From the NCBI GenBank assembly GCA_945864225.1, contig CAMBAL010000018.1, positions 1 to 40,914 of the forward strand: a stretch of DNA of 40,914 nt. Reading direction: 5' to 3'. The notes beneath the pieces were generated by a model, which ran no database searches, had not been told where the DNA came from, and was given only the letters and a program-made list of their open reading frames with translations. Position numbers and translations under genes: made by a program. The DNA comes from an uncultured Blautia sp. (lineage in GTDB: Bacteria > Bacillota > Clostridia > Lachnospirales > Lachnospiraceae). This document shows, one piece after another, positions 1,982-40,885 of this stretch. Each line of letters opens with the position of its first letter. Within the stretch, counting starts at the first letter, position 1.

Positions 1982-3622
1982 ATGATTTCAGCAAATAATA
2001 TCACGCTGCGTGTAGGCAAAAAAGCCTTATTCGAAGACGTTAATATCAAATTTACCGAAGGCAACTGCTATGGTCTGATCGGCGCCAACGGAGCAGGAAA
2101 ATCCACCTTTCTGAAGATCCTTTCCGGACAGCTTGAGCCGACGAAAGGTGATGTAGTCATCACTCCCGGACAGCGGCTTTCCTTCCTGCAGCAGGATCAT
2201 TTTAAATATGATGCTTACCCGGTTTTGGATACCGTAATTATGGGCAACGCAAGACTCTATGAGATTATGAAAGAAAAAGAAGCCATCTATGCCAAAGAAG
2301 ATTTCACAGACGAAGATGGCATCCGTGCCAGCGAACTGGAAGGCGAATTCGCCGAAATGAACGGATGGGAGGCAGAATCCGATGCAGCGACTCTTCTGAA
2401 CGGTCTTGGCATCGAAACAGAATTCCATTATACTCCGATGGCAGACCTTACCGGTAGCCAGAAGGTAAAAGTTCTCCTTGCACAGGCGCTTTTCGGTAAT
2501 CCGGATATCCTTCTTCTCGACGAGCCTACCAACCACCTGGATCTGCCGGCTATTGAATGGCTGGAGGAATTCCTGATCAACTTTGACAACACCGTCATCG
2601 TTGTTTCTCATGACCGTTATTTCTTAAATAAAGTATGTACCCATACTGCGGATATTGACTACGGCAAAATCCAGCTTTATGCCGGAAACTATGATTTCTG
2701 GTTTGAATCCAGTCAGCTCCTCATCAAACAGATGAAAGAAGCCAATAAGAAAAAAGAAGAAAAAATCAAGGAATTGCAGGAATTCATTTCCCGATTCAGC
2801 GCAAATGCTTCCAAATCCAAACAGGCTACTTCCCGTAAGCGTGCCCTGGAAAAAATCCAGCTGGATGAAATGCGTCCTTCCAGCCGCAAATATCCATATA
2901 TTGATTTCCGTCCCAACCGTGAAATCGGAAACGAAGTTCTGATGGTAGAGAATCTTTCCAAAACCATCGATGGCGTAAAAGTTCTTGACAATATCACTTT
3001 TACTCTCGGACATAACGACAAAGTTGCTTTTGTCGGCGCCAACGAGCAGGCTACTACCACATTTTTCAAGATTCTTATGGGAGAAATGGAACCGGACGAA
3101 GGAAATTACAAATGGGGTGTTACAACTTCTCAGGCTTATTTCCCGAAGGACAGTACAAAGGAATTTGATAACGACCTGACAATCACCGACTGGCTGACAC
3201 AGTATTCCGAGATCAAGGATGCAACCTATGTGCGTGGCTTCCTCGGACGTATGCTCTTCCCTGGTGAAGACGGAGTAAAACGTGTGAAGGTGCTTTCCGG
3301 TGGTGAAAAGGTACGCTGCCTTCTTTCCAAAATGATGATCTCCGGTGCAAATATCCTGCTTCTTGATGAGCCTACCAACCATCTGGATATGGAATCCATC
3401 ACTGCACTGAACAATGGTCTGATTAAATTTCCGGGAGTCATCCTTTTCACTTCTCATGACCACCAGTTTGTACAGACAACTGCCAACCGTATTATGGAAA
3501 TCCTTCCGAATGGTACCCTGGTAGACAAAATCACTACTTATGATGAATATCTTGCAAGTGATGAAATGGCCAAGAAACGTCATGTTTATACCATGAACGA
3601 AGAGGACGAGAACGATAACTGA
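1982..3622 (+). CDS. ykpA: ABC-F family ATPase, YkpA/YbiT type
   Basis: A 546-residue protein with two ATP-binding cassettes and no membrane segments, so a ribosome-associated ABC-F factor rather than a transporter. Cassette 1 has Walker A GANGAGKST, a degenerate signature LTGSQ and Walker B LLLDEPTNHLD. A charged linker rich in Lys/Glu joins it to cassette 2, which has a strong LSGGEK signature and LLLDEPTNHLD. The second Walker A reads GANEQATTT and lacks the catalytic lysine; relatives of the YkpA/YbiT subgroup show the same kind of loss, so this is a subgroup trait and not decay. An open frame extends upstream to 1319, but that part overlaps aroK. The ATG at 1982 follows an AGAGG site and starts the canonical MISANNITLRVG. 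A role in translation or antibiotic protection is plausible; none is proven. Confidence 0.92.
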   Translation: MISANNITLRVGKKALFEDVNIKFTEGNCYGLIGANGAGKSTFLKILSGQLEPTKGDVVITPGQRLSFLQQDHFKYDAYPVLDTVIMGNARLYEIMKEKEAIYAKEDFTDEDGIRASELEGEFAEMNGWEAESDAATLLNGLGIETEFHYTPMADLTGSQKVKVLLAQALFGNPDILLLDEPTNHLDLPAIEWLEEFLINFDNTVIVVSHDRYFLNKVCTHTADIDYGKIQLYAGNYDFWFESSQLLIKQMKEANKKKEEKIKELQEFISRFSANASKSKQATSRKRALEKIQLDEMRPSSRKYPYIDFRPNREIGNEVLMVENLSKTIDGVKVLDNITFTLGHNDKVAFVGANEQATTTFFKILMGEMEPDEGNYKWGVTTSQAYFPKDSTKEFDNDLTITDWLTQYSEIKDATYVRGFLGRMLFPGEDGVKRVKVLSGGEKVRCLLSKMMISGANILLLDEPTNHLDMESITALNNGLIKFPGVILFTSHDHQFVQTTANRIMEILPNGTLVDKITTYDEYLASDEMAKKRHVYTMNEEDENDN

Positions 3623-3690
3623 TCTTACAGAAACAGAGGATTCTATCTCTGAGCGGAAATTTCTGTTGACTCAGATATTACGAAAACAAA

Positions 3691-3738
3691 AAAAGGAATA
3701 CAGGGAATGAATGATATCTTCATCCCTGTATTCCTTTT
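3691..3738. terminator. Bidirectional terminator between ABC-F and ybaK genes
   Basis: A perfect 15-bp stem (3691-3705 with 3724-3738). It is flanked by an A-run on the left and T-rich sequence on the right, so it can end both the plus-strand ABC-F transcript and the minus-strand ybaK transcript. Confidence 0.88.
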
Positions 3739-3741
3739 CTC

Positions 3742-3874
3742 ATATCATAGGAAAGTGCTTTGCATTTTCCTATGATATAAGAAAGCCCTTCGGGCAGGAT
3801 CGCACTGCGGCGGAGCGGAAATATATTGCTAAAGCAATCCGCCGCAGGCGGAGAATCCTGCAAAGCAGGATTCT
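3742..3874. repeat. Cluster of inverted repeats (multi-hairpin element)
   Basis: Four stems lie in a row: a 13-bp stem 3742-3754/3766-3778; GCCC-TTC-GGGC at 3785-3795; an 8-bp G+C stem 3807-3814/3838-3845 enclosing a smaller hairpin at 3825-3838; and a 10-bp stem 3852-3861/3865-3874 with an AAA loop. The flanks (about 3775-3785 and 3873-3882) also pair. A similar last hairpin occurs at 23494-23513. It resembles a dispersed intergenic repeat or structured RNA; its identity is not known to me. Confidence 0.6.
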
Positions 3875-3877
3875 TTC

Positions 3878-4354
3878 TTATACTGTGATATCCGCCAGCT
3901 TTCCTCCCGTCACTTTGAGCAATGCATCCAGAGGAACCTTCAAAGTAAGACCAATGCGTCCTCCGCTTACATAAATCTCATCAAAATTTCCTGCAGAACT
4001 GTCAAACACCGTTGGATAGGCTTTCTTCATTCCGATCGGACTGCAGCCTCCCCGTACATAACCGGTAATTTTCAGAATATCTTTTACATGGATCATATCA
4101 ACAGACTTTTCTCCCACTGCTTTTGCCGCCTCTTTTCGATCCACTTCTTTTTCGATAGGGACAACAAACACATAATATCCTCCGCTCTTCCCTTCCATTA
4201 CCAGTGTTTTAAATGATTGCTCATAAGGGGCGCCTGTAAGATCCGCACTGTGGATTCCGTCAATAAACTCATCACATTCATAGGTAAGAGTCTCATATGT
4301 AATTTTTTGTCTGTCCAACATGCGCATTGCATTTGTTTTTGCTTCTTTCGCCAT
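3878..4354 (-). CDS. ybaK: Cys-tRNA(Pro) deacylase, YbaK/EbsC family
   Basis: A 158-residue cytoplasmic editing enzyme of the YbaK family, which hydrolyses cysteine wrongly attached to tRNA(Pro). The start MAKEAKTNAMRMLDRQKI, the KTLVMEG segment with its conserved Lys, and the GYVRGGCSPIG loop are typical of the family. The length is normal. The ATG at 4352-4354 has AGGAGG at 4364-4369. It lies 58 bases after the DUF4203 gene with no clear terminator between, so it may be the last gene of that operon, ended by the strong terminator at 3691-3738. Confidence 0.92.
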   Translation of the reverse strand: MAKEAKTNAMRMLDRQKITYETLTYECDEFIDGIHSADLTGAPYEQSFKTLVMEGKSGGYYVFVVPIEKEVDRKEAAKAVGEKSVDMIHVKDILKITGYVRGGCSPIGMKKAYPTVFDSSAGNFDEIYVSGGRIGLTLKVPLDALLKVTGGKLADITV

Positions 4355-25824: not shown

Positions 25825-25843
25825 AAAACTTTTTGACAAACTC

Positions 25844-25901
25844 AAAAACAAGACAACGGCGGGGAGCTTTAATGTTTGCTCTCCGCCATTGTCTTGTTTT
25901 T
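25844..25901 (-). terminator. Strong terminator of the giant protein/protease operon
   Basis: A stem of over 20 pairs with two or three mismatches (AAAAACAAGACAA...GGCGG...GAGC paired with GCTC...CCGCC...TTGTCTTGTTTTT), loop about 25867-25876, T-run at the end on the minus strand. It lies 3 bases after the protease stop codon. Confidence 0.92.
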
Positions 25902-25904
25902 ATA

Positions 25905-26693
25905 TCAGGGAGTTTCCAGGTAGCCCCAGCCGTACCAGTCGTCGTATCCGGGCTCTCCCATATCCTGCGTCATATCCGCGAAATGTTCTGTGATCAGCAA
26001 AGGATCATTGCCGTCCTGAAGATAATCGGCGATCATGCCGGAGACACGGGCGGCGGCATAGGATGAGCCTTTTTCATCGCCGCAGTCACCGCGGACACAG
26101 AAATCGACGGCTTCTCCGTAAAGATACCACAGGCTGGTCTGCGGCTCTCCTTCCTCATTCAGGTTGACACCTGCGATGCCGATGACCTCGTCCCATGCGG
26201 CGGGATAAGCGACGGTACCGGGACCGGTGCTCAAACTCAGATTACCGGTGCTGGCAACGAGGATGGCGCCCTGGTCATGAGCGTGGAGAATGGCTTCATG
26301 AAGAGCGTCACTTTCGTCAGCCAGCGTCCAGCTCATGTTGATAACATCCGCGTGATATGTATCCACGGCGGCATACAGCGCGGAAATAATAGCCTCTTCA
26401 TTCACGGTATCCTGAGAATCAAAACACTTGAGCATAACCACCTTCGCCTCCGGCGCACCGTTTCGCACCAGCGAACAGATACGGGTGCCATGGCCGACAG
26501 AATCCGTCAGATCATCAGGATCATCCAGGAAGCTCTCTCCTTCCGTGTGATTCTCGCTGCAGCCGGAATCAAGGATACAGACAGTGATCTCTTCCGCTGC
26601 ATAACAGGTCGTCCACGGAAGGATCATGAATAAAATCAGAATTGCAGGAAGAGCCGAAACTCTTCCTGCAAAGTTAAAAATCGTTCGTTTCAT
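25905..26693 (-). CDS. Secreted subtilisin-like serine protease (S8), compact
   Basis: A 262-residue peptidase. A signal peptide (cleavage about TCYAA|EE, residue 33) leads straight into the catalytic domain. The triad is Asp42 (ILDSGC), His68 (GHGTRI) and Ser211 (KGSSYAAARVSG), with the oxyanion Asn151 (STGN). The usual GTSxAxP around the serine reads GSSYAAA, and there are about five other Cys residues. No propeptide is present, and the domain is near the minimum size for the family. The ATG is 8 bases after the stop of the giant surface protein gene, with AAGG 5 bases upstream. Processing or release of that protein is the obvious guess. Confidence 0.88.
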   Translation of the reverse strand: MKRTIFNFAGRVSALPAILILFMILPWTTCYAAEEITVCILDSGCSENHTEGESFLDDPDDLTDSVGHGTRICSLVRNGAPEAKVVMLKCFDSQDTVNEEAIISALYAAVDTYHADVINMSWTLADESDALHEAILHAHDQGAILVASTGNLSLSTGPGTVAYPAAWDEVIGIAGVNLNEEGEPQTSLWYLYGEAVDFCVRGDCGDEKGSSYAAARVSGMIADYLQDGNDPLLITEHFADMTQDMGEPGYDDWYGWGYLETP

Positions 26694-26701
26694 ATTACCT
26701 T

Positions 26702-29700
26702 CTATTCCGGAAGTTCTCCGGCTGCTGCTTCAGCAGCCGGTGCTTCCTGAACTGGTTCCGGGGCCGGTTCGGACATCGGCTCCGGTTCGGCCGTGGGTTC
26801 CACGATCGGCTCGGCCGTGGGTTCCGGAGTCGGCTCGACCGTAGGTACCGGAGTCGGCTCAGCCGTTGGTATCGGGGTCGGCTCAGCGGTAGGTACCGGA
26901 GTCGGCTCAGCCGTTGGTTCCGGAGTCGGCTCGGCGGTTGGTTCCGGGGTCGGCTCGGCCGTAAATTCCGGAGTCGGCTCGGCCGTTGGTGTCAGAGTCG
27001 GCTCGGCCGTTGGTTCGACGTAAGCCATTAGTTCGAACAGTGCTTCTCCCCAGGAAACGCTGCCGTCCTCCAGAACTGCACCTACGTACAGCTTATAACG
27101 TCCGGAAACGTAATCCGCTGCATCCAGTTCGATCTTCTTTTCTTGGGTCATGTCGATCAGCTCCGGTTCGGACTGGCCGTCCTGCTGCTGGGTGTATACC
27201 AGATATTCGGAAGCGGTCTTGCTCACATCCCACTTGAATTCAACCTTCTTCTGGTCTTTTGCAAGCTGGATCGTCCACAGGTCATCGGTCTTCTTCGCAT
27301 CCTGTTTCGGCTCGATCCTGACCACATTTCCGATGGCGCCGGGTTCCAGTACAGGCGTAGGTTCCACTGTCGGCACGGCGGCTGCCGCCCTGCTGCGCAG
27401 GCTGAAGGAGGATGCGTTCGTCACTGTCGTATTGTTCTGATCCGCAAGTTCCATGTAGACATCAAGGTCTGACAGGGTCCACTTGGTTTGGCCGCTTCCA
27501 TATTTAATCGTACACACAGCATTCCCTGACTCATTACTCTCTACTTCTAAATAAACCTCAAAACGGTTGGCACCGGAGACAATATGGGATCCGTCGGCTT
27601 TGTATTCGTTGTCGCTCAGGAGTATATCTGTTCCATGACGATAGACTTGGATTCTGCTGACATGCAACATGCCCAGATTTCCGCCATCCAGGCTCATCCA
27701 TACCTCGGTTTCGGCAGTGCCATACTTGTTATCCGTTATGGTCTTTCTATCTCTGGATGTCAAGTTGCCCACCCCGTAGAGATAATTGCCGCTTCTCATA
27801 ATGATATTGGCATATCTGTAGTTAGTAACCGGCAATTCGATCTCAACATCAGCCTCACGATAGTTGCTGCCCACTACGCCATTGATTGTCTCTGTATACG
27901 GTTGGAACACCGCATTGTAGACAGCGGTATTTTCAACAAACTTATCGGGATCCGGCCATTCCATCCATCCGGGCACACTCTCACCGGTCTTATCATTGAC
28001 GGGCAATCTCTTGATGCGAGGCTCGAAATTTCCAAACGTGTTAACCGGCTCCGCAGGCGGTTCAGGCTGGTAGACATTTTCTTCGGCGATATAGCCGCCG
28101 CAATTATTGGTATCGGGCGTTGATCGGCTAACCTGCACGGTGAAGGTTTCCCTAAGCTGGGCGTAGTTCTCCGGCTTATCCACATATGGCAGGTAGTATG
28201 CCTCCACGGAGTGTCCGTCACCGAAGTCTGCATTGTCTCCTTTAATACTTGCGCACAGCGTTATGCCTTTCATGGAAGCATCCCAAACCCACTTGCCGTT
28301 GATCTGCTCACCGTTGATACCGGTAACCACCAGCCCCGAGAGCATGTCGTTGGCAGTCTTGATTATATCATTTGACGTGCCGTTTGGATCTGTGCACAGC
28401 TGCTGACCGTAGCTCAGCGGGGAGACAGAATGTTTGGTCTTATCCAGCTTCAGCTTCGCGGGCTGAATGGTAAAAGTCCTAACCTTATCGGCTGTAGTTC
28501 CGTCACTCCACGCAGTATTTACGCTATCCTTTAGCTTCAGGACGACTGTGTAATCACCCGCGTCAATGCCGCCGCTGTTGCTCTCCACGGTGTAGTAGGC
28601 GGTGTCGGAAATGTTCGCCTTCTGCAGGGTTCCATTGTACTCTGCCGGCTCGATCACAGGGATCGCCACCTTGCCGGAGGTCACCGTGATTTTTACCGGT
28701 GCCTTGCAGGGGTTAAACAGATCCGTACGATCCGGCTGGAAGACGATATTGTACTCGAATGTGCCGACTTTATCCAGTACGGTGTCCGGGTTCTCCCATA
28801 CCAGGGTTCCTGTCAGATCGCCATAGTTCTCAATGGCCCATTTGTAGGTTTCACTACATGCTTCGATATCAAACAAGCTCCAATGAGAGTAGCTTCCCTT
28901 TAACAGAGTCATGTAGTCGATATCGCCCAGCTTTGTGCCTCCTTCAACGGTGAGCGGCATTAAGGCGTTGGGGCGATTGAAACTCGTATCCGAGGGAACG
29001 ATTTTGAAAGTCGCGCTGGTATTCGCGCTAGCGTTCGGGTCGACAAGATAATATTCATCCAGATCAAAAGGATACGCTTCATATTGTTTGCCTGGTTCAT
29101 CATCGTAGACGTAACGTGTTGTCAGTTCAAGGGGTTTATCTTTCTCCAGCGTGATTGTAGCCGTACCGGGCATGTACGAGTCCACTTTAAACATTGCGTT
29201 AATTCCCATGTTGCTCGGCATCCTGTCGCCGGTATCGACATCGACCATATAGAAACCATCTAAATGCCTATATATTACAATATACAGGTAAAACCCGCCC
29301 AAAAATTCCTCACCGTAATACGGGACTTCATCGCCGAGATCGAACACCGGTTTCACGCCGATCTGCGCGGACACGGCGATTGCCGTCTGCGCGCTGCTGT
29401 ATTTCTTGGTATCTTCAGGTGTGAACACCACCTCGTATATCAGTTCCCCGTTATCCTTACCCAGCGGTCTGATGCCGGGATCCGCCCACTGGAAGGTACC
29501 AGGTACCTCGATTCCTTTTTCGTCTTTTGCCGTACCGGTCAGTTCCACATCGGCAAGGGTGGTGCCGTAAGGAATGTATTTCTTTCCTTCCGGATAAACA
29601 GCGCTCACATCGATGGTTACCGGGTTCAGCAAAGACTTCACGCTGATGTTCTTGCTTGCGGCTGTGATATTACCGTCATCGTCGATGAAGGATATGGTTA

Positions 29701-32700
29701 CTCTATAAGTATAGATATCACCATCTTTATTCTGAACCGCATCTCCGATCTTTTCAACTTCGCTCATAAGAGCTTTTCCATAGATGTCGACATATTTATA
29801 TTCATTTTCATATTTATTATTATTTTCATCTTCATCTACTAATATAAAAGTCGGAGAAGCCAGAGCTGTCTGGACAAAGCTGTCGATATTTTCCAGCTCG
29901 TTCACGCTCATGGTAGCTGATGACGGAATGGCACCAAGCAGTTTCTGGATGATCTCCTGGACAGGAACTCTGGTCTCCCAGACATCCCGGAACTCATGAT
30001 CACCGGTGGATCCCTTGGGGATCACCACTTCAAGTGCCGGCTCGTCACTGTCTCCATCGACCCATCCGAGGAAGTTATAGCCTACCGCGGAAGGATTGAC
30101 CAGCGTAATATCATCTCTTTCAATCGTATACGTGCGTGGGTTGTCCGCCTCGCCGCGACGGAGTTTGAATTCTTTTGAGAAGAGGGAATATTCCACAATC
30201 TTCCAGGTCGCAGTCAAGGTGATATTACCATAAGAACCTGCCTCGATCCAGCAATCGAAACTATCGTCGTATTTGGCAGGGCCCGTTACTTCCCAGCCGC
30301 AGAATTCATATCCTTCGCGGGTAGGATGGGCAATGTCGATCCTGTCGTCCTCGACGGTGTAGGATGCCGGGTTGCCGGGGTCGTTCGTGCCGCCGTTCAT
30401 AATGTAGGTGATAGTATAATCCACAGGCTTCCATCCCGCATACAGATTCATATCGCCTTCCACGAGATAAGTGGCAAAATCGATCTCATCTTCCTCCTGG
30501 CAGTCCGACGTACGGTACCAGCCGGTAAATTCGTAGTTTGTGCGTTCGGGATCCGGGGGAACTTCCTTCTTAATCAGTTCACCGACATATTCGGTTGCCG
30601 GCCAGTGGAGATCCAAGCTTTCCTCTTCTTTATAGTTCAGCCAATAATCAAACTTGGCCTTCTCTAACCAGCGTGCATAGAAGGTCATGCTTTCGTAGAG
30701 CCAGTACTCGCTGGATTCCTTATGCACTTCACCGGTGTAATCAGGCGTGCGATACCAGCCGCCGAAATCATAGCCCTCGATGTACGGCAGGACCAGTTCC
30801 ACCATTTGCTGGTCGACCCTCATCTCGAAGGTGAACCGTTCCTTTTCCGAATCATCGCCAGGGAAGATCTGAACATGAGCGCTTTCAAGTCCATCCCCGG
30901 AACCGCCTCCGACGATTCCGTAGTATTGTGCCTTACCCTTCTGGCCGCCAAAGTCCACGGTGACAGTCACCCACCAGTCGGCGTAGAGGTCGGTGTTTTC
31001 GGTGAACGTTTCGCTGCCGGTATATGGGTTGCCTTTAAATTCGGAATTATCGTACCAGCCCTTGAAGATCAGGCCTTCCACAACAGGATTCTCCGGCATG
31101 GTAATGCTTCCATCCTCCGCGATATCGGCAATGCGGTAGATGCCCATATCGCCGTAGTTATACCGGAAGTTCACCTGATTGATCTTCACACCGCGCAGGT
31201 CGATGCTCACATCCTGTGCCGGCATGATAAAGGTGACCGTATTCTCAGTGATATCGTCCGTATTCTTAGTGATGTCGTAGTTGAGGTCCGCAGCATCAGA
31301 GGTGAGCCGCAGGTTGTTATAGCCTTCCAGCAGAATTGCGGAAAGGGTCACCTCAGCACCGGGAACGATGGCGTTCATCATGGAAGCATCAGGGTACTGG
31401 ATCTCCCAGGACTTAATGCTGCCGGCATCACTGTTAACGGTGAGTTTTCTTGGAATGTGTTCCAGTCTCAGGGTGACTACAGATTCTTCCTCGTTTCCAG
31501 TGAGGGTCAGTCCGCTTTCAAAGGCATCCATGCCGGATCTGTGCAGCAGGATTGCGCGCTCTGTTCCGTCAAATGCGGCGCGGTCCGCGGTCAGGGTCCA
31601 GCGGTTCGTTTCTCCCTCCACAGGAGCAAAGGTCAGAGTCGCTGCCGAGCTGTTTTCGACGGTGAACTCGGTGCCATCGGGCGCGTCAGGCGCTTCGATG
31701 ATGTAGGTGATCTTTCCGGGAACGCCTCCCACGGTCACCTCCACATCCATGAAGGCACTGCTGTAACAGTTCAGGTCGTCCGGGGTAAAGGTTATCCTGT
31801 AGGTGGATGTACCTACTCCCGGCAGAGTGGATGGAGCCTCCCATGCAAAGGTACCTGCAACTGTATCTTCAGCAGACGTTGACGCGTTCAGAGCAAGGTC
31901 CGCAGGGGTAATGCTGCTCAAAAGCCTGCCGTAATCGGCGTTGTATTTCGTGCTGCCGCTCAGGATGGTTTTTGCACGGGTGATGGTGATGACATCGCTG
32001 GCATCCGTGCCTGCGATGGCGTACAGGGACTTGTCGCTGACGCCGGAGATCTCACAGGTCTCATAAGACTTCAGTTTGACAGTGGCCCTGCCGGGCGTGA
32101 TCATGGACTGTTCGAGCACAGCGCCCGTGATGTTGAAGCTCGCGCCCGTGATCATCTTGCGGGTCGCGATATCACTTGCGTAGAACTTGCACTCGGTTAC
32201 ATCCACTGCCCGTCCCATATATTCGATGGTATCGGGCGCATCGAGGACGATTTTCACGCCGATCTGGGTATTGACGGCGATCTGCGTTTCCGCAGTGCTG
32301 TATGTGCCGGAATCCTCAGGTGTGAACACGACCTTGTAGATTTCACTTCCGTTGTCCGCGCTAAGGGGAACGATGGTGTCATCCGCCCACGCGAAGCTTC
32401 CCTTTACCTCTGTGCTGCCATAGCTTGCCGTTCCGGTCAGTGCCACACTAGCGAGGCTCGTGCCGTAAGGGATATAACTGCTGTCCGCCGGATAGCCGGC
32501 TTCCGCTTTGATGGTGACAGGGTTCTTCAGTACCCGCAGCAGGAAATCCTTGCTGTCAGAGAAGGTATTTTCTTCATCCTGATAGGTCACGGTCACGGTC
32601 GCGGTGTAGGAATAGCCCTCGCCGTCCTCTTCCGCTTCGCCGTACGGTACGGCCTCTACGGAAAGATGTGCAAGATGGTCGGCACAGTTCTCATCATCCT

Positions 32701-35700
32701 CCACTGCGTTCCATGCGATTTCCCGGATCACATCGGTGCCCGTGAAATCATTGATACTCATCTTGTGGGAATCCGGGATGGCCGCCAGTGCCGCTTCCAC
32801 GATTTTGGCATTGGGGTCGTCGGCTCTCCATTTGGCAGTATAGCTGCGGTTTCCGGTGGAGCCCGCCGGGATCTTCACTTCCAGCGTCGGTTCCGTGAGA
32901 TCCGTGCCCGTCCAGCCGAGGAAGGTATAGCCTTTTGCTGCGGGGTTGTTCAGCACGATCTCCGCACTCTCAACATTGTAGCTTTCCGGATTTGGCGCAG
33001 CCGTTTCGCCGCGGATGAGTTTGTAACTGATGGTATACGTAATGGGTTTCCATCCGGCACTCAGGGTGATGGCACCGGTGGAACCGGCAGGGATCACCAC
33101 ATCGGTTGTCGGCTCTGCCAGACCCGTTCCCGTCCAGCCAAGGAACTGGTAACCCTTCCGTTCGGGTCTTCCGATGGCGGTCTCACCGCTCTCAACGGTA
33201 TAGCTGTCCGGATTGGACGCACTGTTCTCACCGCCGTTCAGCTCGTAGCTGATGGAATATACTTCCGGTTCCCATCCGGCGTACAGCGTCATGGTGCCTT
33301 CAACCAGGTAGGTATCCGGGTCGATCCGGTCTGCTTCCCCCAAGGCCGGTGTGCGGTACCAGCCGGTAAATTTGTAGCCGTCACGCTGCGGTACTTCACC
33401 GGGGGCATTCTGCATCTTCATGCCCACATATTCCAGGGCCTCATGGAATGGAGCCTCGTCCACGCCGTCATTCTTCCTGTAGGTCAGGGTGGCGGCCTTC
33501 TTCCAGCAGGCGTAGAAGGTCACGCCTCCGGTAAGCTCAAAGGACGAGAGGTTCATCATGCCCTCTCCCGAGAAATCGGGCGTGAGATACCAGCCGAAGA
33601 AACGGTATTCTGTGGATTCCGGAAGGACGATCTCAAGCGCATGGTCACCCACCTTCTGCGTGGAGTAGGTAAAACGCTCATACTCGGTCTCGTCGCCCGG
33701 GAAGATCAGTTCGAAGGAGGACGAGCCGCCGGAACCTTCCTCTCCGGAAGAGGTATCATAGGCCGCCTTGCCCTTCATAACGCCGAAGTCCACGGTGACG
33801 TTTACCCGCCAGTCGGCGTAGAGCGTGATGTTTCCGCTGAGCTTTTTGGTGAAGTCGAAGGCTTCTCCCGTGCATCCGGCATTGTCATACCAGCCTGCAA
33901 AGGTAAGGCCTTCCACGGAAGGATCTTTCGGCATGGAGATGCCGCCGTCCTCCTGCGTGTCGATTGTGCGGTAGACACCCATATCGTCATAGTTGTACAG
34001 GAACTCCGCCTGGTAATCCTTCACACCGCGCAGCACAAGTTCCACATCCTGCGCCGGCATGGTGAAGCTGAACCGGCCATTCTCATAAGAAGCATTCAGT
34101 CCCGCAGGGTCAGAGGTGGAACGCAGTTCGTTATAACCGTCCTTAAGACTGACGGAAAGGACCACCTTTTCACCGGGGGCGATGGCATCCGCCTGGCCGC
34201 CGGCAGGAGTCAGCATCTCCCAGGTGCCAATGCCGTCCATTGCGGAGACGGAGAGCTTTCTTGGAACATAGTCCAGCTTCAGGATGACCTCGGACTCTGC
34301 TTCGCGTCCGGTAATGGTCAGTCCGCATCTGACGGGGTCGTTCTCTCCCATCTGGAGCATGATCGCGTGCTCTGTGCCGTCGAAGGCAGCTCGGGCTACG
34401 TCCAGTCTCCAGCGGTTCTGCTCTCCTTCCACAGGGGCAAAGGACAGCGCCTTTTCCTCACCATAATCGGCGGTGACTGTGAACAGCGCATCGGAAGGCG
34501 CGTCAGGTGCTTCAATGATGTAGGTAACTTCACCCGGATAGCCGCTGACGGTCACCTTTGCGTCGATGGCTGCGCTGCTGTAGCAGCTCAGGTCATCCGG
34601 TGTAAAGATCACTTTGTAAGTGTATTCTCCCGCTTTCTTCAGAGGGATATTGGGATTCTCCCATGCGAAGGTACCGGCAACAGTATCTCCCGCTGCTGTT
34701 GCAGCCTTAAGATCCGGAACGATGCTGCGCAGTACACTGTCGTAATCGGCGGTGTACTCCGTCACGCCGCTGATGACCGGAACTGCGCGGGTGATGGTGA
34801 TGGTATCGCTGATATCCGTGTCGGCGATGTCGTACAGATCCGGATCGCTGACACCGGTGATCTCAAGTGTTTCGTATCCCTTCAGCGTGACAGTGGCCCT
34901 GCCGGGCGTGGTCACGGACTGTTCCAGCACAGCTCCCGTGATGCTGAAGGCCGCTCCGGTGATCTTCTCACCGGTATCTATGTCAACTGCATGGAAGCTG
35001 CACTCGGACAGATCCAGTGCGCGTCCCGTGTACTCGATGGTATCCGGCGCATCGAGGACGACCTTCACGCCGGTCCGTGCATTGACGGCGATCATCGTTT
35101 CCGCAGTGCTGTATCTGCCGGGATCCTCGGGTGTGAACACGACCTTGTAGATCTCGCTGCCGTTATCCGCGCTAAGGGGAACGATGGTGTCATCCTCCCA
35201 CGTGAAGCTTCCCTTTACGGTTTTGCCGTCAGAGGTCGCCTTTCCGGTCAGTTCCACATCCGCAAGGCGCGTGCCGTAAGGAACGGATTTTCTTCCGGAC
35301 GGATAGCGGACATCCGCGCTAATGGTAACGGGATTCTTCTCGACCTTCAGCGCAACCTTCTTGCTTTTTGCACTGATATTGCCGTCGTCGTCGGTGAAGG
35401 TAACAGTTGCTTTCACGGTATAGGAAATGCTCGCGCTTCCCTCAACCGCCTCGCCAACCTGTTCGACCGTTACGGAAATCTGATCGAGGTACGGGGCAAA
35501 AGTATCATCGCCGGTCAGCGCATCCATGGCGAGTGTTTGGATAACCTCAATGCCGGAGAAATCGTTCACACTCATCGTGTGCGAATCCGGAATTGCTGCC
35601 AGTGCCTTCGCAACGATGTCATCGATTGACGTATTGGCACGCCAGTTGGCTCTGTAGCTGCGGTTACCGGTGGAGCCTTTGGGGATCACCACATCGGTGG

Positions 35701-38700
35701 TTGGCTCGGTGAGGTTCGTGCCGGTCCATCCCAGGAAGGTGTAACCGGTACGCGTCGGATTTTCCAGCGCAATAGCTTCACTTTTGACAGTGTATGTGTC
35801 GGGTACGGTCTGCGTCATGGTGCCCCCTGCGGCATCGCAGCTGAGCGTATAGACGCTGATCTCCCAGTTGGCAGTCAGGGTGATGTTGCCGGTGGAGCCG
35901 GCCGGGATGCGCACTGTTCCGTCATCCGTGCCGATGCCTTTCGCTGTCCATCCGAGGAACTGATAGCCCTTGCGGGTGGGTTCGCCAATGACGATATCTT
36001 TGCTCTCAATGGTGTAGTAGCCCGGGTTGGCGGGATTGTTCTCGCCGCCGTCCAGATTGTAGGTGATGATGTATTCCTGCGGCTTCCATCCCGCATACAG
36101 CGTAATGGATTTTTCCACAATATAGTCATCGAGTCTGACATAGTTATCCGCGGTGGTTTTGGACGAGCGGAACCATCCGAGGAACCTGTAGTTCTCGCGC
36201 TGCGGCTTTTCGGGCATGTGCTGTACCGGCATACCCACATATTCCATGGACATGTAGTAGGGCTTTTCCTGTTCGCCATAATTCAGCTCGTAGGTCAGGA
36301 AGGCGTAGGCCTTCCAGCAGGCGTAAAAGGTCACACCTCCGGTGAGCACGTAAGTCGCCGGATTCACGGGTTCTCCCGAGAATTCCGGATTTGTGTACCA
36401 GCCGAAGAACTCGTAGCCCATATAGCTTGGCAGCTTGTAATCCAGCGCGGTATCGCCCACCTTATGCGTGGAATAGGTGTAGCGGGCGTATTCGCTCTGA
36501 TCGCCGGGGAAGATCAAACCGTAGCCGTTGGCTTCCGCCTTCCCTTTCGGTCCGCCCAGATCCACGGTGACATTCACCCGCCAGTCGGCATACAGAGTAA
36601 TGTTGCCGGTGATCGGCTTCGCAAAGTCAAAAGGTTCGCCCCTGCATTCGGCGTTGTCGTACCAGCCCGCGAAGGTCAGTCCGCTGACGGATGGATCGGA
36701 TGGCCGTCCGACGGCGGAGCCTTCCTCCACATCCGCGCTCCGGTATACGCCGAGCCCGTCATAGTTGTACATGAAGTTCACCTGATAGTTGCGCGATCCG
36801 TATAAGGTCACACTGACGTCGTGGGCCGGCATGGTGAAGGTGACCGTGCTGCCGTCAGAGCGATACTGCAGTCCTGCGGGCTCAGAGGTGAGGCGCAGAT
36901 TCTGATAGCCGTTCATCAGCCCGGCAGAGAGGACGACCTTTTCGCCGGCGAGGATGCTGTTCATCTGCGAAGGATCGTGGGAACGGATTTCCCAGGACGC
37001 GATGCCTTTCCCGCCGGTGACGGAGAGTTTCTTTTTCAGGCTTTCCAGCTTCAGTACGACGACGGATTCCTTCTCGCGTCCGGTGACCGTCAGTCCGGAA
37101 TCGATGGTCTCTCCTCCGTTCACACGCATCTGGATTGGTCTCTTGCTGCCGTTAAAAGCAACACGCGGAACGGTCAGGCTCCAGCGGTTCGACGTATCCT
37201 CCATGCGCGCGAAGGTCCTGTTTTCCCCTGTGTCTCTGCCGCGAACCGTGAACAGGGTATCCTCAGGCGCATCTTCCGCTTCGATGATGTAGGTAATATC
37301 ACCGGTATATCCCTGATAGCGGTTGACGAACAGACAGAAGGTCACGCTGTATTCATTGGTCGTCTCATACACGTTATAGCGCACAGTTCCGCTGTTGGGC
37401 GTCAAATAGCACAGGTTGCTGAATTGCGGAATGCTGTACTGAACGGTGCGGTTTACCTGGTTGAGGGTCGGGTTGAACCAGGAGAGCATCGATTCATCGA
37501 TTTCGGGATATTGCTTCTTTACAGTGGCGATCACTTCGTCGAGATCGATCTCACCGGTTGCGCTGATATCTGTGGGACAGCCCAGAATGTGGGTGTCCTC
37601 GAAGGTGGTCTCATACACGGTGGTATTGTCCCACTGTGCTGCCTCGATCCCCCAGCTGTGGGCGCACCAGTCGTACAGTGCGATGTTCACGTCGACCGTG
37701 GTGACGGCCATCTTGAATTCGCGATGGAAGGGGAATACCTGCCGATGGTTCTTGATCAATTCGGACTTGTTTTTATTCTTATAAGTCAGCACCACATCGC
37801 ACTGATAATCCTCTACCTTGTAGTTGGCCGCCGCATACTCGTCTGCGTAGATCGAGCCGCACCTGTGGCCGTCTGTGCCATCGCCAACAACAATGACGTT
37901 GACGCGCGGATCATCAGCCGCGACAGGTTCGCCGTTGATGACCACGTTCTCCAGCGACAGCTTTGCGGTGACATTGCCCTCCTGCAGATTTTCAAACAGC
38001 AGCTGGCTTTTGGTGCATTCGGCCGTGCGCAGGTCGTAGGAATCCAGGGTAAGATAGAGCAGGTTGTAGCTGGTTTTGTAGTTGGCGTTCTTCATGGTCT
38101 TCGCCCACATTTCCTCCAGCGGCGCCTTCTCCACCACGCTCATGGTCATGTAGTGGTCCAGGGTGTACAACGACCATCGCTCCGACCAGAGCGTGCCGCC
38201 GAACTCAAAGGCAAAGAGGAACAGGTCGACCCTCGTTTTACAACCGAGGTCCAGTTCTATGCCCACATCCAGATGCAGCGCGTCCGCATAATTGCCTCCG
38301 CCCGCCGACACTGCAGCTTTATGCATGAACATGCCTGCCAGTTCGACATAGACAAAGACCGCGCCGAAGAAGTGTGGCTGAATGACCTGGGCGAGCTTGC
38401 CGTAAAAGGTGAGCTGGACACCCAGCCGCACACCCATCGCGCCGATCAGGAAGACCTCGCTGGTGACGTCGCTGGCCAGTTTCTGCTTGTAGGTACCGCC
38501 CTTGGACGTCTTGAAGTTGTAGTTAAAGCCGACCTTCTGGCCGTACTCCGCCGTGATCTTAACGCCGAAATTGGCTGTCACAGACGCTTGGCCGATGAGT
38601 TCGATCTTACCTCCAAGTGTCACGAGACCATAGGCAGCGTTCTTCTTGATATCCAGCAAAGGCACAACGAACAGATCAAAATATTCGTGTTCGGTTGAAG

Positions 38701-40885
38701 TCAGGCAGATCATGCAAGTCACCAGATCATGGGCCGCCTTTTCGTAATCGTAGCCGTCCACTGCCGTTCCGTCTGCCTGGATGACCTCCTCCAGCGTGGT
38801 CTTGGCCTTATCGATAACATTCGTACCTTCGCCGGTGACCACCTCGAGTTCCAGGTTCATGTCGGTCTTGGTCTTGAATACAACGGACATATCCATCCAC
38901 AGGAACCCGCCGTCCGCATTGACATCCAGCGTCAGCTGCTGCTCAAAGTGCATCTTCGGGGAGATCGTGGCAAGCGTGCCCTCCACATCTAAAACGTCAT
39001 ACGTAGTGGTGTACAGCACCATGGTATAGGTCACATCAACGCTGACGGTCAAGGTGTTGCCTTCGGGCGTGATATGGGGATCCACATCGATGCTGGTGGG
39101 ATCGACAATCGTTCCGGCCAGTGAGTAGGTGCCGGGACCGTACTTGTCGTCCAGGATCTTCTGCGTTTCATCGCTGGTCATGACGGCCATCATCATCTGC
39201 GCCTTCAGTTCTTCATTGGAAGATATCTGGCTGACGATGGTCTTTTCGGCCTGGGCGATCTGTTCCTCGGTCAGCTGCTCCTCCAGGTCCACTCCCTCGG
39301 TGGTATGGATCTCCAGCTCGGAGATGTAGTCCTCCGGATCGGCATAGCGGAAGGTGACCTCGCTGGTCCCGTCTTCCAGGGGCTCCACGGTCATGATCTG
39401 GGCATACAGCACATAGCCTGCCAGATCGCCGCTCTCCCATTCGGTGACGGAGACTTCGTCCCGGTTGATCTCGCCGTCGTAGAATACAACGACCTGTTCC
39501 GGCCGGAGATCCGCATCGCCGGTCAGGATCAGCCTGCCGGGAATGACCTCTCCTTTCGCTTCGTTTTCGTCCAGCATATTGAACACAGTGCTTTCCCCGG
39601 TATAGTCGCTCATATCCTCATTATCAAAATCGTCCGTATCGTTCGTCCTGCTCACGGGAGTATAATCGGTCACATCGTCCCACAGGACGTAGGTCAGCCC
39701 TTCGGCAAACTCAACGACTTCGATCTGCTCACGGTAGATGCTCACCGTCAGTGTATCGATGTATTCCGGCTGTCCTTCAAACATCACACCGTTCTGTGCG
39801 GTCAGGGTAAAGGTGGAGCCAGGGACGAAGCCCTCTTCGCAGTAGATCTCCGCGCCTCCTTCGGTCTCGCGAACGGAGATCTCCGGAGCTTCCGGGCCGG
39901 TGCCGGCTTCGAGGGTGATGTTATCCAGAACCTCGTCTGCGGTCATGCCCTCGGGCAGTACAAGGCCGATGGCCGCCTCGCCGTCGGGAAGCTCGACCTC
40001 GGCAACGGTGCCCGGCTTTTCGCTAGCGATCTGCTCCTCGGAGGAATACAGGGCATAGAGGGTCATGCTCTCTTCAATGGGATCCATGTAGCCAAAGCCC
40101 GTGGTGCATTCCTCGTCCACGCACCATCCTCCGAAGGTATAGCCCTCTTTGGCGGTGTACAGGCTCTGTACCGGCTTGGTCAGCAGATACTCGCCTTTGG
40201 CAAATACCAGCGGTTCCAGCTCACTTCCGCCGAAGGTCTCAAAGGTGACCACCGCCGCGTCGGCTTCATCGACGAAGCGGGCGTACAGGGTCATATCTCT
40301 GTCCACGGTTTCCAGACGGGAAGCCGGAGTGGTAAAGTCAGCGTCTTCATACCATGCGGTGAAGATCTTTCCCTCCAGCTCGGTGTTCGCCTCAGCGTAA
40401 TTCACCATGCCTCCGGGAGCGACTTCCTGGGTTTTGACGGGTGTACCCTCGGTGACGAAGGACACCAGCCATTTGTTCAGTACGAAATCCACCTGCTCGC
40501 CCGGCTGCAGTTCCACGACCTCGTCATCGGGGCCGGTCACTTCAAAGGCTTCCTCTGTTTCGTTGACCACGGAACCGGTAGCCCGGACAGTCAGGGCATT
40601 TACAGCCTCCTGCACACGGACCACGCCCAGAGCGCCGCTGCCCTCAATGATCACTTCGTCCGCACTCTTGACGATGATCTCGGGAAGCTGCGTGCCGGAA
40701 TTCATATGAAGATAGATCAGGTCCGGCTCTTCTTCGTCCGGATCGGTTTCTTTATCTGAATCAGTTTCTTCATTATTTGGGTCTGTTTCTTCTGAATCTG
40801 CTTTTTCATTTGAATCTGCTTCTTCTGAATCTGCTTCTTCTTCTGAATCTGCTTCTTCTGAATATGCTTCTTCTTCATATTCATC
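26702..40885 (-). CDS. Giant repetitive surface protein with InlB B-repeats, 5' end missing
   Basis: At least 4,727 codons, open from 40885 to the stop at 26702; the first ATG in frame (40703-40705) leaves 4,667 residues, but no ribosome site precedes it and the acidic frame upstream is clearly coding, so the true start lies beyond the contig end. Layout from that ATG: two InlB-type repeats (about 80-225), an alpha/beta region, a glycine- and aromatic-rich beta region (about 640-860), three mega-units (about 1135, 2057 and 2995 onward), a fibronectin-like domain (about 4470-4560) and a Pro/Thr/Glu tail of ten octapeptides. InlB B-repeats (GYxFLGWxG...ITLTANW) are beta-grasp modules of adhesins. 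There is no LPXTG or membrane anchor at the C-terminus. It is a likely adhesin or extracellular matrix protein, unnamed to my knowledge. Confidence 0.85.
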   Translation of the reverse strand, partial: DEYEEEAYSEEADSEEEADSEEADSNEKADSEETDPNNEETDSDKETDPDEEEPDLIYLHMNSGTQLPEIIVKSADEVIIEGSGALGVVRVQEAVNALTVRATGSVVNETEEAFEVTGPDDEVVELQPGEQVDFVLNKWLVSFVTEGTPVKTQEVAPGGMVNYAEANTELEGKIFTAWYEDADFTTPASRLETVDRDMTLYARFVDEADAAVVTFETFGGSELEPLVFAKGEYLLTKPVQSLYTAKEGYTFGGWCVDEECTTGFGYMDPIEESMTLYALYSSEEQIASEKPGTVAEVELPDGEAAIGLVLPEGMTADEVLDNITLEAGTGPEAPEISVRETEGGAEIYCEEGFVPGSTFTLTAQNGVMFEGQPEYIDTLTVSIYREQIEVVEFAEGLTYVLWDDVTDYTPVSRTNDTDDFDNEDMSDYTGESTVFNMLDENEAKGEVIPGRLILTGDADLRPEQVVVFYDGEINRDEVSVTEWESGDLAGYVLYAQIMTVEPLEDGTSEVTFRYADPEDYISELEIHTTEGVDLEEQLTEEQIAQAEKTIVSQISSNEELKAQMMMAVMTSDETQKILDDKYGPGTYSLAGTIVDPTSIDVDPHITPEGNTLTVSVDVTYTMVLYTTTYDVLDVEGTLATISPKMHFEQQLTLDVNADGGFLWMDMSVVFKTKTDMNLELEVVTGEGTNVIDKAKTTLEEVIQADGTAVDGYDYEKAAHDLVTCMICLTSTEHEYFDLFVVPLLDIKKNAAYGLVTLGGKIELIGQASVTANFGVKITAEYGQKVGFNYNFKTSKGGTYKQKLASDVTSEVFLIGAMGVRLGVQLTFYGKLAQVIQPHFFGAVFVYVELAGMFMHKAAVSAGGGNYADALHLDVGIELDLGCKTRVDLFLFAFEFGGTLWSERWSLYTLDHYMTMSVVEKAPLEEMWAKTMKNANYKTSYNLLYLTLDSYDLRTAECTKSQLLFENLQEGNVTAKLSLENVVINGEPVAADDPRVNVIVVGDGTDGHRCGSIYADEYAAANYKVEDYQCDVVLTYKNKNKSELIKNHRQVFPFHREFKMAVTTVDVNIALYDWCAHSWGIEAAQWDNTTVYETTFEDTHILGCPTDISATGEIDLDEVIATVKKQYPEIDESMLSWFNPTLNQVNRTVQYSIPQFSNLCYLTPNSGTVRYNVYETTNEYSVTFCLFVNRYQGYTGDITYIIEAEDAPEDTLFTVRGRDTGENRTFARMEDTSNRWSLTVPRVAFNGSKRPIQMRVNGGETIDSGLTVTGREKESVVVLKLESLKKKLSVTGGKGIASWEIRSHDPSQMNSILAGEKVVLSAGLMNGYQNLRLTSEPAGLQYRSDGSTVTFTMPAHDVSVTLYGSRNYQVNFMYNYDGLGVYRSADVEEGSAVGRPSDPSVSGLTFAGWYDNAECRGEPFDFAKPITGNITLYADWRVNVTVDLGGPKGKAEANGYGLIFPGDQSEYARYTYSTHKVGDTALDYKLPSYMGYEFFGWYTNPEFSGEPVNPATYVLTGGVTFYACWKAYAFLTYELNYGEQEKPYYMSMEYVGMPVQHMPEKPQRENYRFLGWFRSSKTTADNYVRLDDYIVEKSITLYAGWKPQEYIITYNLDGGENNPANPGYYTIESKDIVIGEPTRKGYQFLGWTAKGIGTDDGTVRIPAGSTGNITLTANWEISVYTLSCDAAGGTMTQTVPDTYTVKSEAIALENPTRTGYTFLGWTGTNLTEPTTDVVIPKGSTGNRSYRANWRANTSIDDIVAKALAAIPDSHTMSVNDFSGIEVIQTLAMDALTGDDTFAPYLDQISVTVEQVGEAVEGSASISYTVKATVTFTDDDGNISAKSKKVALKVEKNPVTISADVRYPSGRKSVPYGTRLADVELTGKATSDGKTVKGSFTWEDDTIVPLSADNGSEIYKVVFTPEDPGRYSTAETMIAVNARTGVKVVLDAPDTIEYTGRALDLSECSFHAVDIDTGEKITGAAFSITGAVLEQSVTTPGRATVTLKGYETLEITGVSDPDLYDIADTDISDTITITRAVPVISGVTEYTADYDSVLRSIVPDLKAATAAGDTVAGTFAWENPNIPLKKAGEYTYKVIFTPDDLSCYSSAAIDAKVTVSGYPGEVTYIIEAPDAPSDALFTVTADYGEEKALSFAPVEGEQNRWRLDVARAAFDGTEHAIMLQMGENDPVRCGLTITGREAESEVILKLDYVPRKLSVSAMDGIGTWEMLTPAGGQADAIAPGEKVVLSVSLKDGYNELRSTSDPAGLNASYENGRFSFTMPAQDVELVLRGVKDYQAEFLYNYDDMGVYRTIDTQEDGGISMPKDPSVEGLTFAGWYDNAGCTGEAFDFTKKLSGNITLYADWRVNVTVDFGVMKGKAAYDTSSGEEGSGGSSSFELIFPGDETEYERFTYSTQKVGDHALEIVLPESTEYRFFGWYLTPDFSGEGMMNLSSFELTGGVTFYACWKKAATLTYRKNDGVDEAPFHEALEYVGMKMQNAPGEVPQRDGYKFTGWYRTPALGEADRIDPDTYLVEGTMTLYAGWEPEVYSISYELNGGENSASNPDSYTVESGETAIGRPERKGYQFLGWTGTGLAEPTTDVVIPAGSTGAITLSAGWKPITYTISYKLIRGETAAPNPESYNVESAEIVLNNPAAKGYTFLGWTGTDLTEPTLEVKIPAGSTGNRSYTAKWRADDPNAKIVEAALAAIPDSHKMSINDFTGTDVIREIAWNAVEDDENCADHLAHLSVEAVPYGEAEEDGEGYSYTATVTVTYQDEENTFSDSKDFLLRVLKNPVTIKAEAGYPADSSYIPYGTSLASVALTGTASYGSTEVKGSFAWADDTIVPLSADNGSEIYKVVFTPEDSGTYSTAETQIAVNTQIGVKIVLDAPDTIEYMGRAVDVTECKFYASDIATRKMITGASFNITGAVLEQSMITPGRATVKLKSYETCEISGVSDKSLYAIAGTDASDVITITRAKTILSGSTKYNADYGRLLSSITPADLALNASTSAEDTVAGTFAWEAPSTLPGVGTSTYRITFTPDDLNCYSSAFMDVEVTVGGVPGKITYIIEAPDAPDGTEFTVENSSAATLTFAPVEGETNRWTLTADRAAFDGTERAILLHRSGMDAFESGLTLTGNEEESVVTLRLEHIPRKLTVNSDAGSIKSWEIQYPDASMMNAIVPGAEVTLSAILLEGYNNLRLTSDAADLNYDITKNTDDITENTVTFIMPAQDVSIDLRGVKINQVNFRYNYGDMGIYRIADIAEDGSITMPENPVVEGLIFKGWYDNSEFKGNPYTGSETFTENTDLYADWWVTVTVDFGGQKGKAQYYGIVGGGSGDGLESAHVQIFPGDDSEKERFTFEMRVDQQMVELVLPYIEGYDFGGWYRTPDYTGEVHKESSEYWLYESMTFYARWLEKAKFDYWLNYKEEESLDLHWPATEYVGELIKKEVPPDPERTNYEFTGWYRTSDCQEEDEIDFATYLVEGDMNLYAGWKPVDYTITYIMNGGTNDPGNPASYTVEDDRIDIAHPTREGYEFCGWEVTGPAKYDDSFDCWIEAGSYGNITLTATWKIVEYSLFSKEFKLRRGEADNPRTYTIERDDITLVNPSAVGYNFLGWVDGDSDEPALEVVIPKGSTGDHEFRDVWETRVPVQEIIQKLLGAIPSSATMSVNELENIDSFVQTALASPTFILVDEDENNNKYENEYKYVDIYGKALMSEVEKIGDAVQNKDGDIYTYRVTISFIDDDGNITAASKNISVKSLLNPVTIDVSAVYPEGKKYIPYGTTLADVELTGTAKDEKGIEVPGTFQWADPGIRPLGKDNGELIYEVVFTPEDTKKYSSAQTAIAVSAQIGVKPVFDLGDEVPYYGEEFLGGFYLYIVIYRHLDGFYMVDVDTGDRMPSNMGINAMFKVDSYMPGTATITLEKDKPLELTTRYVYDDEPGKQYEAYPFDLDEYYLVDPNASANTSATFKIVPSDTSFNRPNALMPLTVEGGTKLGDIDYMTLLKGSYSHWSLFDIEACSETYKWAIENYGDLTGTLVWENPDTVLDKVGTFEYNIVFQPDRTDLFNPCKAPVKITVTSGKVAIPVIEPAEYNGTLQKANISDTAYYTVESNSGGIDAGDYTVVLKLKDSVNTAWSDGTTADKVRTFTIQPAKLKLDKTKHSVSPLSYGQQLCTDPNGTSNDIIKTANDMLSGLVVTGINGEQINGKWVWDASMKGITLCASIKGDNADFGDGHSVEAYYLPYVDKPENYAQLRETFTVQVSRSTPDTNNCGGYIAEENVYQPEPPAEPVNTFGNFEPRIKRLPVNDKTGESVPGWMEWPDPDKFVENTAVYNAVFQPYTETINGVVGSNYREADVEIELPVTNYRYANIIMRSGNYLYGVGNLTSRDRKTITDNKYGTAETEVWMSLDGGNLGMLHVSRIQVYRHGTDILLSDNEYKADGSHIVSGANRFEVYLEVESNESGNAVCTIKYGSGQTKWTLSDLDVYMELADQNNTTVTNASSFSLRSRAAAAVPTVEPTPVLEPGAIGNVVRIEPKQDAKKTDDLWTIQLAKDQKKVEFKWDVSKTASEYLVYTQQQDGQSEPELIDMTQEKKIELDAADYVSGRYKLYVGAVLEDGSVSWGEALFELMAYVEPTAEPTLTPTAEPTPEFTAEPTPEPTAEPTPEPTAEPTPVPTAEPTPIPTAEPTPVPTVEPTPEPTAEPIVEPTAEPEPMSEPAPEPVQEAPAAEAAAGELPE
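26780..27019 (-). repeat. Ten 24-bp repeats coding PxPTAEPT octapeptides
   Basis: Ten in-frame copies of a 24-base unit give units such as VEPTAEPT, PEPTAEPT and PVPTAEPT. It forms a stiff extended tail before the final acidic/alanine-rich 25 residues. Copy number could vary by slippage without a frameshift. Confidence 0.9.
28680..31719 (-). repeat. Mega-unit 3 of giant protein, more diverged
   Basis: About 1,010 residues starting GKITYIIEAPDAPDGT. Same order of modules, but with insertions rich in charged residues (ENNNKYENEYK near 29800) and less conserved beta domains at the end. It is the oldest-looking of the three. Confidence 0.8.
31720..34534 (-). repeat. Mega-unit 2 of giant protein
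   Basis: About 938 residues starting GEVTYIIEAPDAPSDA, collinear with unit 1 (FAGWYDN, FFGWYLT, FTGWYRT, FLGWTGT twice, IPDSHKMSINDF, IPYGTSLASVALTG). Some stretches match unit 1 almost exactly (DDTIVPLSADNGSEIYKVVF), which suggests recent duplication or gene conversion. Confidence 0.85.
34535..37304 (-). repeat. Mega-unit 1 of giant protein
   Basis: About 923 residues starting GDITYIIEAEDAPEDT. Contains a YIIEA-type domain, about five InlB B-repeats (FAGWYDN, FFGWYTN, FLGWFRS, FLGWTAK, FLGWTGT), an alpha-helical IPDSHTMSVNDF segment and two MBG-type beta domains (VPYGTRLADVELTG; YTADYDSVLRSI). Confidence 0.85.
40755..40885 (-). repeat. Acidic low-complexity repeat near contig end
   Basis: Imperfect 12-15-base repeats code EEADS/EETDS units, in frame with the giant protein. 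A TAA stop interrupts the frame at 40886-40888, and the last 26 bases continue the same acidic coding pattern beyond it. Confidence 0.75.

Follow-up and report, generated by a model that had tools for sequence, protein, structure and literature searches.

A small subtilisin-like protease encoded immediately behind a giant repeat protein in an uncultured Blautia sp. raises the question of whether the enzyme is dedicated to its giant neighbor. A first-pass annotation of this DNA had proposed that the protease processes, releases or trims the giant protein. Our analysis partly supports that interpretation: the pair recurs in the same order in other genomes, which speaks for it, and the two genes occur apart in some relatives, which speaks against it.

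The window, that is, the whole stretch of 40,914 nucleotides analyzed here, is one complete contig (G000:C18) of a 2.67 Mb genome that is 84% complete. Both genes lie on the minus strand. The giant InlB-B-repeat (Flg_new) protein is encoded by an open frame (26702–40885) that ends at 26702, and the gene of the 262-aa protease (25905–26693) starts at 26693, 8 bases past the giant stop, exactly as the first-pass annotation had read it. That annotation had also assigned one strong terminator to both genes, and an intrinsic-terminator-like hairpin was indeed found 3′ of the two (25843–25902, minus strand), with a loop of 10, a U-run at the end of its 3′ arm and a folding energy of −37.1 kcal/mol (z −11.6; none of 200 shuffles was equally stable). 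The giant and protease genes are probably co-transcribed on one transcript that ends at this terminator. The high G+C content said to mark the pair off was also borne out, with 54.7% in the giant and 53.9% in the protease versus 43.3% in the rest of the window; GC3 is 66.5 and 58.2, respectively, and 39–46 in five other genes.

The giant frame comprises 4,727 codons, with 4,667 aa from the first ATG (40705), and stays open upstream to about 40885, 29 bases short of the contig end; the part near the contig end (40706–40885, minus strand) encodes an acidic, D/E/S-rich linker in the same frame. The orthologue in Blautia sp. SUG17 (G013/G041) has about 210 extra N-terminal residues, and its N-terminus is a signal-peptide-like hydrophobic segment by hydropathy. 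Because the frame is open so near the contig end and this orthologue is longer, the true start of the giant, and with it the 5′ end of the gene, lies outside the window. Flg_new (PF09479) matches the giant at 406.9 bits, versus a cut-off of 27, in 16 stretches, and by this repeat score the giant is an InlB-B-repeat surface protein. It does not belong to the LPXTG-anchored InlB-type surface proteins: its last 60 residues contain no LPxT[GAN] motif, hydropathy gave no C-terminal hydrophobic segment, and the protein ends in a Pro/Glu/Thr-rich tail (26702–27022, minus strand) that has neither an LPXTG motif nor a membrane segment.

The giant also contains a non-repeat core domain of 617 aa without a Pfam name (37868–39718, minus strand). 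The structure model of this core is of low confidence (pTM 0.53) and has beta strands as long as 37 residues; assignment of the model to a known fold was rejected, as Foldseek gave no PDB match below E 1e-3. An S-layer-homology domain at the N-terminus was likewise rejected, since six of the seven giant N-termini examined had no Pfam match at all and the matches of the other one stayed below threshold. Much of the size of the window giant comes from a module of ~930–1000 residues, which split self-comparison revealed in three tandem copies (28679–37177, minus strand; residues ~1177–2099, ~2101–3036 and ~3001–4009). Copy numbers taken from alignments were one in the giants of G045 (3051 aa) and G044 (2966 aa), two in that of G043 (3976 aa) and three in that of G041 (4929 aa). 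Giant length was observed to differ among species by whole modules of this size, present in one, two or three copies. Other observations concern the C-terminal end. In the first giant gene of G045 (L011:9930-9975), an in-frame TAG stands just before the conserved C-terminal tip, and the frames of the window and L006 giants run five codons beyond the stop position of their relatives. The distant giants at L062, L063, L064, L073 and L075 have a similar C-terminal segment (GTNVLTF...), with a protease following or not; we know of no family name for this segment.

The protease matches PF00082 (peptidase S8) at 84.9 bits (gathering cut-off 21.8; E 8e-24), and the same Pfam scan gave no propeptide family, in keeping with the earlier description of an enzyme without a recognizable propeptide. 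The full triad of Asp42, His68 and Ser211 described earlier was confirmed: these residues, together with Asn151, are invariant across an alignment of eight family members including the window protease, with L012 in place of L013. By both score and triad, the window protease is a peptidase S8. Its structure model is of moderate confidence (pLDDT 63.7), and the best Foldseek matches are subtilisin BPN′ variants (TM about 0.6–0.68). By hydropathy, the N-terminus is hydrophobic and would be a signal peptide or else an anchor that stays uncleaved; a membrane segment is missing at the C-terminus. This N-terminus is consistent with the export claimed earlier, and the protease of several relatives looks membrane-tethered. 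A 13-bp RNA hairpin within the codons of the signal segment (26642–26671, minus strand) is strong in five of seven sequences and missing in L008 and L009, and its covariation, examined with a conserved regulatory RNA in mind, is not above that of shuffles (86 of 500 reach its score). Such a hairpin might keep the yield of protease below that of the giant.

Searching a collection of one genome per species for the protease returned nine loci, eight of which are close (45–97% identity); the ninth, L014 of Phycisphaerales (28% identity), stands outside the counts given here. The outcome was strongly positive for the same gene pair and order elsewhere. The giant core was found in all eight other genomes with a close protease, and of the ten close pairs (the eight loci, the window pair and an additional pair of G045), eight are adjacent, with gaps of −4 to 59 b. 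In the two other pairs (L012 and L013), three genes separate giant and protease, over a distance of about 2 kb. The intervening genes (L013:7836-9561, L012:4113-5838) encode a nucleotidyltransferase, a HepT-like RNase (toxin–antitoxin type) and a LuxR-type regulator, these families having been tested in L013 only. The contigs of L007 and L012 carry only the C-terminal part of the giant; each of these two genomes has the core on a different contig.

Because these loci were reached via the protease, they are unable to show giants that lack one. Searches with the giant core gave close giants in two of 41 relatives (the window genome itself and G013), in two of 149 relatives of G043 (G043, which had itself been reached via its protease, and G044) and in one of 397 Lachnospiraceae genomes (the window genome), and each of these genomes also has the protease. 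Among the 41 relatives, a close protease was present in the window genome and G013 only; three others gave general S8 matches in frames of 715–1405 aa.

The pair has also been duplicated as a unit. Blautia sp. SUG67 (G045) carries two giant–protease pairs about 1.2 kb apart. The second (L030:730-10145, on G045:C26), downstream of the first, encodes a giant of 2872 aa and a protease of 266 aa, and the likely GTG start of the protease overlaps the giant stop by 4 bases. The two pairs are 41% identical in the giant core and 46% identical in the protease.

Two comparisons gave identity patterns suggestive of transfer. The window and G013 are 93–97% identical in DNA over the pair, with the match stopping at the protease end, and identity in the syntenic flank beyond is 81%; the stretch between protease end and flank is about 12 kb in G013 and 1.2 kb in the window. 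The proteases of G042, G043 and G048 are 69–73% identical to that of the window, while RpoB of these genomes is 62–65% identical to that of the window genome (the RpoB of G048 is partial, and that of G044 was not found). Greater conservation of a secreted protease than of RpoB between lineages points to lateral transfer of both genes together, and it seems that the pair was passed between lineages as one unit. Since the close pairs come from records titled MAG (metagenome-assembled), misbinning could inflate this claim; the contigs of the eight loci measure 40–140 kb in five cases and 8–13 kb in three, and the window flank is syntenic with that of G013. The loci compared do not share their downstream sequence, so no further downstream gene was observed to move along with the pair. 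The earlier reading had rested on operon structure only; conserved adjacency, duplication as a unit and apparent transfer as a unit are now added to it.

Two possible carriers, phage and plasmid, were rejected. Of 24 pattern matches in viral contigs, none was confirmed as a relative, and the matches in 23 plasmid records were all below 60% identity, with ≤30% among the eight matches listed.

Protease and giant-core identities correlate with each other (r 0.83; 7 genomes, 21 pairs), and RpoB identities track neither the protease nor the giant core (0.31 and −0.02; 7 genomes). The protease tree places G045 with G000/G041 (support 0.909), and the giant-core tree places it with G048 (support 0.881). 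Between G000/G041 and G045, the core is 56–57% identical and the protease 81%, indicating that the protease does not track the core closely. Given the greater divergence of the G000/G041 core and the different placement of G045 in the two trees, the recognition site probably lies outside the core, if the protease recognizes the giant. The dN/dS ratio of the protease is 0.16–0.24 (seven comparisons, one with dS near saturation), and this purifying selection suggests that the enzyme is probably functional. The giant core gave 0.34–0.54 in five comparisons, a sixth being saturated, and by this measure the giant evolves faster than the protease.

The pairing extends to a wider circle of proteins. 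The protease profile, searched against the 397 Lachnospiraceae genomes at E ≤ 1e-25, gave 11 further places in eight genomes. Four of these are small S8 frames of less than 400 aa (G121, 376 aa; G050, 375 aa; G347, 382 aa; G090, 312 aa), and all four lie directly behind an InlB-B-repeat protein, with upstream frames of 2835, 3222, 3141 and 693 aa, respectively, the last near a contig start. The upstream protein of G121 has only the divergent repeat PF18998, with a dockerin. Among the seven large S8 places (546–1283 aa), six are not directly behind a frame of >2000 aa, and the contig is too short in one. InlB-B-repeat proteins are common, with Flg_new matches in 38 of 60 sampled Lachnospiraceae genomes, but an estimate based on at least 18 repeat-protein frames of >2000 aa in at least 13 of the 60 genomes makes it very unlikely that four of four small proteases lie behind repeat proteins by chance. 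In a control of 392 genomes of the order with 23 S8 loci, 19 loci had an upstream frame in the short flanks, and the [FY]xGW repeat motif occurred in none of these 19 visible frames; L091 (207 aa) had no upstream frame. Only the G347 giant matched the giant-core profile among the four outer pairs; the outer giants thus share the repeats and not the core. The best curated score of the four outer proteases is against mycosin, at 125–198 bits (top 197.6; cut-off 278.75), and the G347 protease has hydrophobic segments at both its N- and C-terminal ends by hydropathy.

Repeat giants also occur on their own. Five distant giants (G344, G341, G160, G225 and one in G121) had no S8 gene in the surrounding sequence that was fetched, nor did a 1037-aa relative in G205; the distant giants of G345, G087 and G402 were left out, as their contigs end too soon to show a neighbor. 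These giants and the G205 relative indicate that such proteins do not generally need a protease. The first-pass annotation had named occurrence of the two genes apart in relatives as grounds against its proposal. This situation exists in the wider circle, in the five distant giants; among the closer genomes, separation amounts to the three intervening genes in two, and the other pairs are adjacent.

We propose that the locus is a horizontally spread two-gene cassette, with dedicated processing of the giant as the most likely function of the protease; we assign this reading a probability of roughly 0.55. A functional link between giant and protease is well supported. The two genes have remained paired across duplication and what looks like transfer between distant lineages; such persistence suggests that the giant is served by the small enzyme. 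The first gene would produce a giant (about 3,000–5,000 aa), exported InlB-B-repeat protein without LPXTG or a C-terminal anchor, and the second a minimal exported subtilisin, seemingly membrane-tethered in several relatives. The protease would sit on the outer side of the membrane, close to the exit of the giant from Sec, would fold without a propeptide and would make one or a few cuts in the giant. Natural candidate cut sites would be linkers near the ends, for instance the Pro/Glu/Thr-rich tail or the acidic linker at the N-terminus, and the outcome of cutting would be maturation or release of the giant. No conserved cleavage site was found in the giants, and the variation of their C-terminal tip in L011, L006 and the window also counts against this reading. 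We infer co-transcription, export and tethering (the last two from hydropathy), as well as the giant as substrate and the position and effect of the cut.

A more far-reaching version of this proposal would make the pair a new surface-assembly cassette of Clostridia, in which an anchor-less giant has its own tethered, propeptide-less subtilisin as dedicated maturase or even as transpeptidase (“subtilisin-type sortase”), the whole being laterally spread as a unit and scaled by ~950-residue modules. We regard this version as speculative and rather doubtful. The compact protease that accompanies one class of LPXTG-less giants provides a direct genetic handle on how such giants are matured and held, since a system of two genes is easily transferred to a laboratory host and probed with a single active-site mutant.

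The two proteins may instead be co-secreted partners that share a purpose without being enzyme and substrate. The giant would then be an adhesin, a scaffold or a mucus-binding fiber, and the protease would attack nearby third-party proteins of the host, the diet or a competitor. This arrangement is consistent with the export-type hydrophobic segments at both N-termini, with the InlB-type repeats and faster evolution of the giant and with the disagreement between the protease and giant-core trees. However, the membrane-tethered look of several relatives better suits a partner emerging at the membrane than distant targets, and the constant giant-then-protease order and duplication as a unit suit a dedicated partner. 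We consider third-party substrates a somewhat unlikely explanation.

A structural or chaperone-like role of the mycosin type, in which the protein but not its proteolysis is needed for export or assembly, is difficult to reconcile with catalytic residues that are invariant in the aligned family and under purifying selection, and with the absence of a C-terminal membrane segment from the window protease. We judge it improbable, even though the four outer proteases score best against mycosin, the G347 protease has hydrophobic segments at both ends, and an excerpt of PMC5082899 describes mycosin as essential for secretion and the protease activity of MycP1 as dispensable. It is also highly improbable that co-inheritance explains everything, the genes being two members of one mobile or recombining island with no functional link. 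The breaks in GC and identity show that this block moves, and related giants exist without a protease; nevertheless, adjacency has been kept despite much divergence, both in four other genera whose giants are different and in the second, diverged pair of G045, and no other downstream gene accompanies the pair in the loci compared. We favor the reading of the protease as the processing enzyme of the giant, and compare it below with known systems.

Our searches of the open-licence literature gave no earlier description of the giant–protease pair. The window giant resembles the InlB-B-repeat (Flg_new/List_Bact_rpt) surface proteins in its 16 Flg_new stretches and differs from them in lacking LPXTG or a C-terminal membrane anchor; unlike the five distant giants examined, it has a protease next door. 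Mycosins carry a C-terminal membrane segment and are encoded with a type VII secretion system. The mycosin MycP, a type VII secretion protease, is a compact exported subtilisin, as the window protease appears to be by hydropathy. The mycosin-type C-terminal segment is present in the G347 relative and absent from the window protease, which scores 64.1 bits against the mycosin profile (TIGR03921; cut-off 278.75) and has an InlB-B-repeat protein as its partner.

The subtilisin SphB1, a surface-anchored exoprotease, is to our knowledge neither minimal nor encoded immediately downstream of its substrate. It resembles the present case in that a subtilisin acts on a giant surface protein, the corresponding cleavage being putative here. 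Excerpts of PMC8263021 describe the cutting of giant FhaB (filamentous haemagglutinin) by SphB1 in Bordetella, and those of PMC6070651 describe SphB1 as an autotransporter.

The best curated match of the window protease is QhpE (NF049966), the maturase of quinohemoprotein amine dehydrogenase, at 101.6 bits with a cut-off of 165. QhpE is likewise the best curated match of L010, L011 and L012 (96–104 bits), and its profile gave 60.7–104.3 bits in eight protease relatives, all below that cut-off. Since the window protease scores below both the QhpE and mycosin cut-offs, it belongs to neither family by those cut-offs. According to excerpts of PMC7876137, the subtilisin QhpE shares an operon with the partner that it cuts, does so in a single turnover and works in the cytoplasm on a small leader-bearing subunit. 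Both systems have a small subtilisin encoded beside its substrate, a putative one in our case. In contrast to QhpE, the window protease looks exported, its score stays below 165, and its partner is a giant repeat protein.
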